Source: Cyanobium sp. Cruz-8D1 (lineage in GTDB: Bacteria; Cyanobacteriota; Cyanobacteriia; PCC-6307; Cyanobiaceae). From it: 64,000 bases of DNA. The position numbers and the translations under genes were made by a program. This document shows positions 32,349-32,394 of this stretch, in pieces (the stretch's first letter is position 1; every line of letters begins with the position of its first letter). The notes beneath the pieces are model-generated. The model made no database searches. It saw nothing but the letters and a program-made list of their open reading frames with translations, and was not told the DNA's origin. The stretch is from assembly GCF_024345975.1 (NCBI RefSeq), contig NZ_JAGQCD010000019.1:1-64000 (forward strand), read 5' to 3'.

Positions 32349-32394
32349 TCAGCCTTCCAAGCTGATGATGCGGGTTCGATTCCCGCCGCCCGCT
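32349..32394 (+). other. Truncated tRNA-Gly(UCC): right attachment site of the element
   Basis: TCAGC-CTTCCAA-GCTGA is the anticodon arm with anticodon TCC (49-65). TGAT is the variable loop. GCGGG-TTCGATT-CCCGC is the T arm (32370-32386), CGCCCGC the 3' acceptor strand and T the discriminator. The 5' acceptor strand and D arm are absent: the sequence before it (GGGCGATTTATAGC) does not fold with it. This is the pattern left when an element integrates in a tRNA 3' half, with the intact tRNA at the other end. The glgX stop codon lies inside this fragment on the opposite strand. Confidence 0.8.

Follow-up and report, generated by a model that had tools for sequence, protein, structure and literature searches.

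The truncated tRNA-Gly(UCC) at positions 32348-32395 (+ strand) of the window, i.e. the whole 64,000-nucleotide stretch of Cyanobium sp. Cruz-8D1 DNA analyzed here, is very probably (probability of about 0.95) the attR scar left by a temperate prophage of siphophage type that integrated in a tRNA-Gly(UCC) gene. The window corresponds to C20:1-64000, one contig of a 108-contig genome, and its left edge is the end of this contig. Positions 32348-32394 reproduce without mismatch the 47 bp that form the 3' part of tRNA-Gly(UCC) and run from its position 26 to the discriminator T. As the sequence-only reading had noticed, this copy retains the anticodon arm, the T arm, the 3' acceptor strand and the discriminator base, and lacks the D arm and the 5' acceptor strand. 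The identity with the locus of the intact gene reaches one base (a T) beyond the tRNA, to position 32395 (48 bp).

Genome-wide, with up to three mismatches allowed, the 47-mer is found only here and in the intact tRNA-Gly gene of contig C27 (25758-25828, minus strand), the only other exact copy. A 46-bp pattern occurs once in the window at 0 mismatches and in none of 100 dinucleotide shuffles. Furthermore, the last 46 nt of the 42 distinct host tRNA genes called by ARAGORN were compared by BLAST (E up to 0.01) with the window and C27, and Gly-UCC is the only one duplicated outside tRNA genes. A gene called as tRNA-Ala (C27:41567-41638) resembles a neighboring tRNA-Thr but has a tRNA score of its own. 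Rfam gives 30.3 bits to positions 32335-32392, just above the cut-off of 29, and 76.1 bits, the highest tRNA score in the genome, to the intact tRNA-Gly of C27. In the window, the 32348-32394 fragment is not among the tRNAs called by ARAGORN. The GGGCG located before the core on the phage side could pair with CGCCC of the tRNA 3' strand (32335-32392). This would give a D-armless tRNA-like fold, just past the Rfam cut-off, and the flank concerned is conserved in the Gly-UCC relatives. ARAGORN also proposed a tRNA-Gln(CUG) at 23795-23872 inside the prophage, which was set aside since Rfam does not support it; this stretch aligns to viral contigs G060 and G061.

Attachment sites and the empty site in a relative

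The intact tRNA-Gly(UCC) of C27 lies 283 bp before a gene encoding a full-length tyrosine integrase of 384 aa (C27:24320-25474). The tRNA 3' part is present as a direct repeat at both ends of the element, one on C27 and the other in the window. The intact tRNA of C27 is followed by TCCTTTTCTC... and the fragment of the window by TTCTTCTTTGCC.... In the relative G026, an intact tRNA gene is preceded by the flank found on C27 and followed by the flank found in the window: by BLAST, the part of C27 that ends with the tRNA and the part of C20 that begins at 32348 abut in this genome, with 96% identity and a 52-bp overlap. Since G026 joins both flanks contiguously, C27 carries attL, the window carries attR and the MFS-tRNA-Gly-glgX locus of G026 is the uninterrupted attB. 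Among the relatives read, G026 also encodes the closest GlgX and MFS proteins (98.6% and 99.1%, respectively).

Thirty-six genus-mates were searched, 33 of them gave a match and the loci of 27 were read. An MFS gene is located upstream of the tRNA in 26 of these 27 loci and glgX lies directly on an intact tRNA in 14. An integrase, whole or in pieces, follows the tRNA in three loci (G020, G031 and G007). In G030, the integrase is found at the other copy of the core; this genome has a second core with element-type sequence on either side. The Gly-UCC prophage of G030 has both ends in common with the present element. The viral contig G060 has the integrase end and the right end in common with it, and terminates in a Gly-UCC attR like that of the window. 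Moreover, the phage-side flank of the core, GGGCGATTTATAG (32335-32347, + strand), recurs with one difference in G030, G020 and G060. The sequence-only reading had interpreted the half tRNA as the scar of a tyrosine recombinase and had suggested looking for an integrase next to an intact tRNA-Gly(UCC) that shares this 3' core, and for element-free relatives at glgX. Both were found, on C27 and in G026, where the intact tRNA is joined straight to glgX. The two observations that would have spoken against it were not encountered: glgX adjoins a truncated tRNA in 0 of the 27 genus-mate loci, and the intact tRNA-Gly does have its att-like duplication.

The host gene that adjoins attR, encoding a glgX-type debranching enzyme (32349-34547, minus strand), has its stop codon (TGA, 32349-32351) within the att core, and its last 14 codons are read off the antisense strand of the tRNA. 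In all 14 genus-mates that carry glgX at the tRNA, the GlgX alignment ends at the same last residue. Since the core contains the stop codon, GlgX encoded at attR is the same as in the empty site, and integration cuts neither tRNA-Gly nor glgX.

Extent and gene content of the prophage

The 25.8 kb found on C27 and the 32.3 kb found in the window give an element of at least 58.1 kb. Hence, the initial proposal of an element of at least 32 kb holds as a lower bound and falls short as a size, 25.8 kb being on C27. Because C27 and C20 have no terminal overlap, their joining is deduced from the empty site. About half of the G030 interval unmatched by C27 and C20, namely 20 kb in the central part of that prophage (L072), was compared as DNA with the present genome. 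It had only six matches of 49-66 bp, so that this part of G030 gave no bridge between the two contigs.

Genes were called by a purpose-written script and not by a standard gene finder. Besides the integrase, C27:1-25757 encodes two HTH_17 proteins matching excisionase families (one with LysM), a KilA-N protein, a helicase, a primase, a large terminase, a sigma factor, a portal and a scaffold. The large terminase matches phrog_38 and the portal phrog_145, which places the element by terminase and portal among tailed phages (Caudoviricetes). The primase and the terminase (L033:12337-16110 and L033:7433-10168, both on C27) each contain an intein with matches to LAGLIDADG-type endonucleases, apparently inserted at the Walker A motif. 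The inteins share 32% identity, the one of the primase apparently begins with Gln and not Cys, and the G030 homologues have none.

The part of the element carried by the window (1-32347) encodes tail-fiber, lysis, M23/Calx-beta, LysM, endolysin, sigma, Rad52 and Gp157 proteins as well as cargo. From the right end, these include a YspA/SLOG-like gene (31039-31491, minus strand; Pfam PF10686) with a homologue near the right end in G030, G060 and G061, a Siphovirus Gp157/Mu Gam-like protein (30367-30897, minus; PF05565, phrog_253), a Rad52-type recombination protein (29128-29958, minus; PF04098, 9.1e-43), a phage-type RNA polymerase sigma factor recognized by family matches (21309-21965, minus) and a C39-like endolysin (19714-20505, minus; phrog_10051, 1.9e-57). 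Further left are a LysM protein (16300-17013, minus), which is a displaced homologue of a head-module gene of relatives, a large M23 peptidase/Calx-beta/Ig-like protein in the low-GC part of the island (10631-15223, minus), a probable lysis pair (8510-9831, plus; YkuD-like, PF03734 below the curated cut-off, and phage lysozyme, PF18013) whose first gene has homologues in G060, G061 and G030, and a collagen-like tail fiber (4777-5790, plus). The gene at 15-452 (plus) encodes a protein 56-57% identical to proteins of G061 and G060. In both viral contigs, its homologue directly follows the gene of a capsid-type protein of 303-304 aa, that of G061 being a major head protein (phrog_212). This suggests that the capsid gene of the present element would fall in the break between C27 and C20; no capsid match was found on these two contigs, and seven were found on other contigs of the genome.

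Good collinearity with relatives is limited to C27 and the right end. The segments 8510-10117 and 16300-17760 differ in place or orientation from G060 and G061, which indicates that the prophage is rearranged, recombined or nested within 1-18 kb. The scrambled gene order of C20:1-18 kb could also mean that this part comes from a second related prophage, in tandem or nested, and that only 18-32 kb belongs to the tRNA-Gly prophage. The host carries seven related capsid matches and 12 integrase matches, and second cores are known in G030 and in Vulcanococcus Clear-D1. However, C20:1-32394 is gap-free within a single contig, neither a second core of any of the 42 host tRNAs nor a second arm site was found in it, and the sum of 58.1 kb fits the relatives (a circle of 49.8 kb and 56.1 kb between the two integrases of Clear-D1). 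We therefore regard an origin from two prophages as unlikely. The claim that 1-32.3 kb forms one unit thus probably stands, on a contig whose first 18 kb are rearranged and whose left end is a gap.

Some genes of the element look like cargo. Two divergent genes encoding cation/proton antiporters, one with Na_H_Exchanger and TrkA_C domains (25552-27252, minus) and the other with Na_H_Exchanger and TrkA_N domains (27390-29063, plus), are inserted in the prophage at 25466-29130. This region of 25.5-29.1 kb is missing at that place in G030 and Clear-D1 (G062), the alignments of its two flanks being almost contiguous there; it is also unmatched in G060 and G061, whose flanks are more divergent. Contig C3 of G026 carries an 87% homologue of the second antiporter and a broken remnant of the first, and contig C87 of the present genome has no antiporters at the place matching G026 C3. 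A transposon origin found no support when both borders were inspected by eye. A lipoprotein with META/NlpE/YscW domains is encoded in the tail region (3049-4491). In G030, its relative (C1:7.8-9.2 kb) is the neighbor of a gene related to the second antiporter, which suggests cargo of host type for both.

Tycheposons are tRNA-targeted cargo elements devoid of phage structural genes. It is very improbable that the present element is such an integrative island or a phage satellite and not a complete phage. Its accessory cargo (two antiporters, the META/NlpE lipoprotein and the M23/Calx-beta protein) and the lack of a capsid match on the C20 and C27 pieces would fit this view, as would short elements of 9.9 kb in G020 and 3.7 kb in G027 that occupy this site and whose called genes include no homologue of the present terminase or portal by direct comparison (as opposed to a family-library scan). 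However, the element carries structural genes, i.e. terminase, portal, scaffold and tail-fiber genes, its circular relative G061 encodes a major head protein, and the integrase of G020 is split into two frames, which reads as decay. The G020 element (L066, 3351-13232) has both att ends and this split integrase, and that of G027 (L067, 3921-7658) has both att ends and no called integrase; they are possibly relics or satellites of the same phage family. Finally, a host tRNA pseudogene that arose by decay or duplication independently of integration, an idea that could draw on the low Rfam score of the fragment (only 30.3 bits) and on the fact that deletion also makes half tRNAs, is already refuted by the empty site of G026, by the intact tRNA located directly before glgX in this genome and 13 other genus-mates and by the recurrence of the phage-specific flank and repeats before the fragment in other prophages and viral contigs.

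Integrase, probable arm repeats and proposed course of integration

The integrase of the tRNA-Gly prophage matches phrog_1 (6.5e-19), and the Pfam integrase model matches it (P0002) below the cut-off only; no match was found among 50,697 phage records. R223, K243, R320 and H344 are invariant in the 45 aligned members of the family and Y353 is present in 44 of them; we take these five to be the catalytic residues of tyrosine recombinases. All 45 members have Tyr317 in box II, at a position where His is usual.

A putative arm-type site, ACATCTCACCAAACATCTCACAT, is located at 32269-32291 (+ strand) and consists of two CATCTCAC units 12 bp apart. The pair begins 78 bp before the core. With up to three mismatches, the motif occurs once in the window and in none of 100 shuffles. 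Its partner at attL has one mismatch and begins 107 bp beyond the core. The paired pattern can be written CWTCTCAC-N(4)-CNTCTCAC. Repeats are found on the left of the core at -78 or -79 in the six right-side att sites examined. Between core and integrase, they are present (at most one mismatch) in 36 of 64 rows, 32 of them at exactly +107 for an origin set 283 bp before int, and the other four (L115, L121, L125 and L127) at +106 or +107 when measured from the tRNA ends. The 28 rows without repeats comprise 15 from the Pro branch and 13 with partial, broken or misread integrases; L113, from the Pro branch, has a pair with two mismatches at +107. At Gly, Arg and Val sites, one repeat pair starts 78 bp before the core and the other about 107 bp after it. 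They are likely arm-binding sites of the integrase, or may instead be bound by an excisionase.

The tRNA-Gly(UCC) sequence joined to phage DNA at attR is limited to its 3' part. The identity between Gly-UCC attP and attB starts at tRNA position 26. In the Gly-CCC and Arg-UCU relatives with a phage-side left flank, it starts, by eye, 2-5 bp before the anticodon loop and ends at the tRNA 3' end. Since the identity on the right side is needed to restore the tRNA, it is the left limit that points to the anticodon loop as the site of exchange. From these boundaries, together with what is generally held for such enzymes, we infer a crossover in this loop. Recombination between attP and the host tRNA gene by the tyrosine integrase would take place there. 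The phage 3' half and the host 5' half would rebuild a working tRNA at attL, and the displaced 3' half of the host would remain at attR. The antisense stop of glgX being in the core, the same event would leave GlgX unaltered. Excision would be the reversal, giving a circle with attP such as that of the related viral contig G061. The latter has a terminal repeat of 99 bp, which indicates a circle of 49.8 kb. It carries homologous genes and one attP with only the 3' half of tRNA-Gly(CCC) and arm repeats on both sides.

Related prophages, their tRNA targets and known systems

Relatives of the integrase were found at 60 loci of the genome contig collection and in eight viral contigs by a scan that detects close relatives only. 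The hosts of the 60 loci are mostly Cyanobium, Synechococcus, Vulcanococcus or unnamed cyanobacteria. The same integrase is found in G030 and in Cyanobium sp. FGCU6. Two members of the family (L117 and L118) come from 3.6-4.6-kb contigs of MAGs labeled Bifidobacterium breve and Opitutaceae, probably by binning contamination. Where the integrase is intact and the tRNA is called by ARAGORN at default settings, the tRNA 3' end lies 282-283 bp before int. Low-stringency ARAGORN upstream of integrases gave many false tRNAs among the matches listed; therefore, tRNA identities rest on default calls and on the sequence.

A tree was built from 45 integrases, with three rows unlabeled; Val-site members and L129 were left out and L145 carries no label. 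Its rows comprise 3 Gly-UCC, 10 Gly-CCC, 14 Arg-UCU and 15 Pro integrases, and each of these groups corresponds to one change, all with 100/99 support. The integrase family thus has at least four tRNA targets, each a clade. An earlier tree, with L129 out of frame (branch of 1.96) and L145 labeled Gly-UCC without a visible att, gave two changes each for Arg-UCU and Pro and was rejected. All 15 Pro rows have half of a tRNA, truncated and in antisense orientation, 308-370 bp before int; in the Pro branch, it is thus the truncated copy that int adjoins. This half is identical over the tested stretch to tRNA-Pro(UGG) of the present genome, 13 rows being gap-free with 0 mismatches beyond the two of L108. 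In Clear-D1, two integrases are 56,093 bp apart and the second one has a truncated core.

The present genome itself contains 12 integrase matches, located beside tRNA-Gly(UCC), Gly(CCC), Val(UAC), Arg(UCU) and Arg(CCU), the Arg(UCU) neighbor being a partial match (48%) and the Arg(CCU) neighbor a distant one (33%). At its Gly-CCC and Val sites, this repeat pair is again found, 106 bp past the end of the tRNA; no pair was found at up to one mismatch on the Arg(UCU) contig C55. A stop is present in four of the 12 matches and several others are incomplete, which leaves only part of these prophages as potentially intact. The genome also has seven matches (62-98%) to one capsid protein, on C18, C50, C31, C32, C49, C21 and C48, which would make the host a polylysogen of related phages. 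On balance, it seems rather probable that one cyanosiphophage lineage was re-targeted among tRNA genes by swapping only the attP core, from anticodon loop to tRNA 3' end, within a rigid frame (arm repeats at about -78 and +107, int about 283 bp from the tRNA), with Gly-UCC, Gly-CCC, Arg-UCU, Val-UAC and a deeper Pro branch as targets. If so, core exchange would let several related prophages coexist in one cell. Such sites, in which the attP frame stays constant and the tRNA core can be exchanged, are also a natural series for the study of target change in tyrosine integrases. For the Cyanobium lineage, the locus provides an unambiguous attL/attR/attB set. As the integrase family is present at 60 loci, lysogeny could be assayed there by junction PCR.

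A relic prophage was reportedly described in Synechococcus in 2019. The literature searched, with most subscription journals outside its scope, contained no description of the present prophage family. Attachment to tRNA genes is a classical mechanism; the new part is the family, its conserved attP frame and polylysogeny.

In the passages drawn on, lysogeny is described as apparently rare in unicellular cyanobacteria (PMC6157547) and intact prophages as absent from marine Synechococcus and Prochlorococcus isolates (PMC8776855). The literature compared also includes part of the paper on Ca. Regnicoccus (PMC9716671). S-LBS1 resembles the present prophage in being a freshwater picocyanobacterial siphophage with a tyrosine integrase; the att proposed in the sections concerned is 14 bp inside protein genes, and induction revealed no integration (PMC6157547). 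The present integrase had no match among phage records, a set that may not include S-LBS1. As here, S-TIP37 and P-SSP7 integrate site-specifically into a host tRNA gene, but these T7-like phages target tRNA-Leu and, according to the text consulted, form no stable lysogens (PMC8776855). Likewise, phiSynAce1 and phiSynAce2 of Synechococcus CS-601 are prophage loci in a picocyanobacterium, but of 8.2 and 18.2 kb, with a 12-bp att for phiSynAce2 and, in the part of the description used, no DNA-synthesis genes (PMC6337551).

Among phage records, relatives of the portal were found only in P-SS2, S-CBS2 and S-CRES1-3 (eight records), with 28.6-32.2% identity over 88-100% of the query. For P-SS2, the extracts used report int and a putative att of 53 bp, 36 bp of which match tRNA-Met (PMC2784084). 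This att is a prediction in a phage and concerns another tRNA, whereas here the sequences show attL, attR and the empty site.
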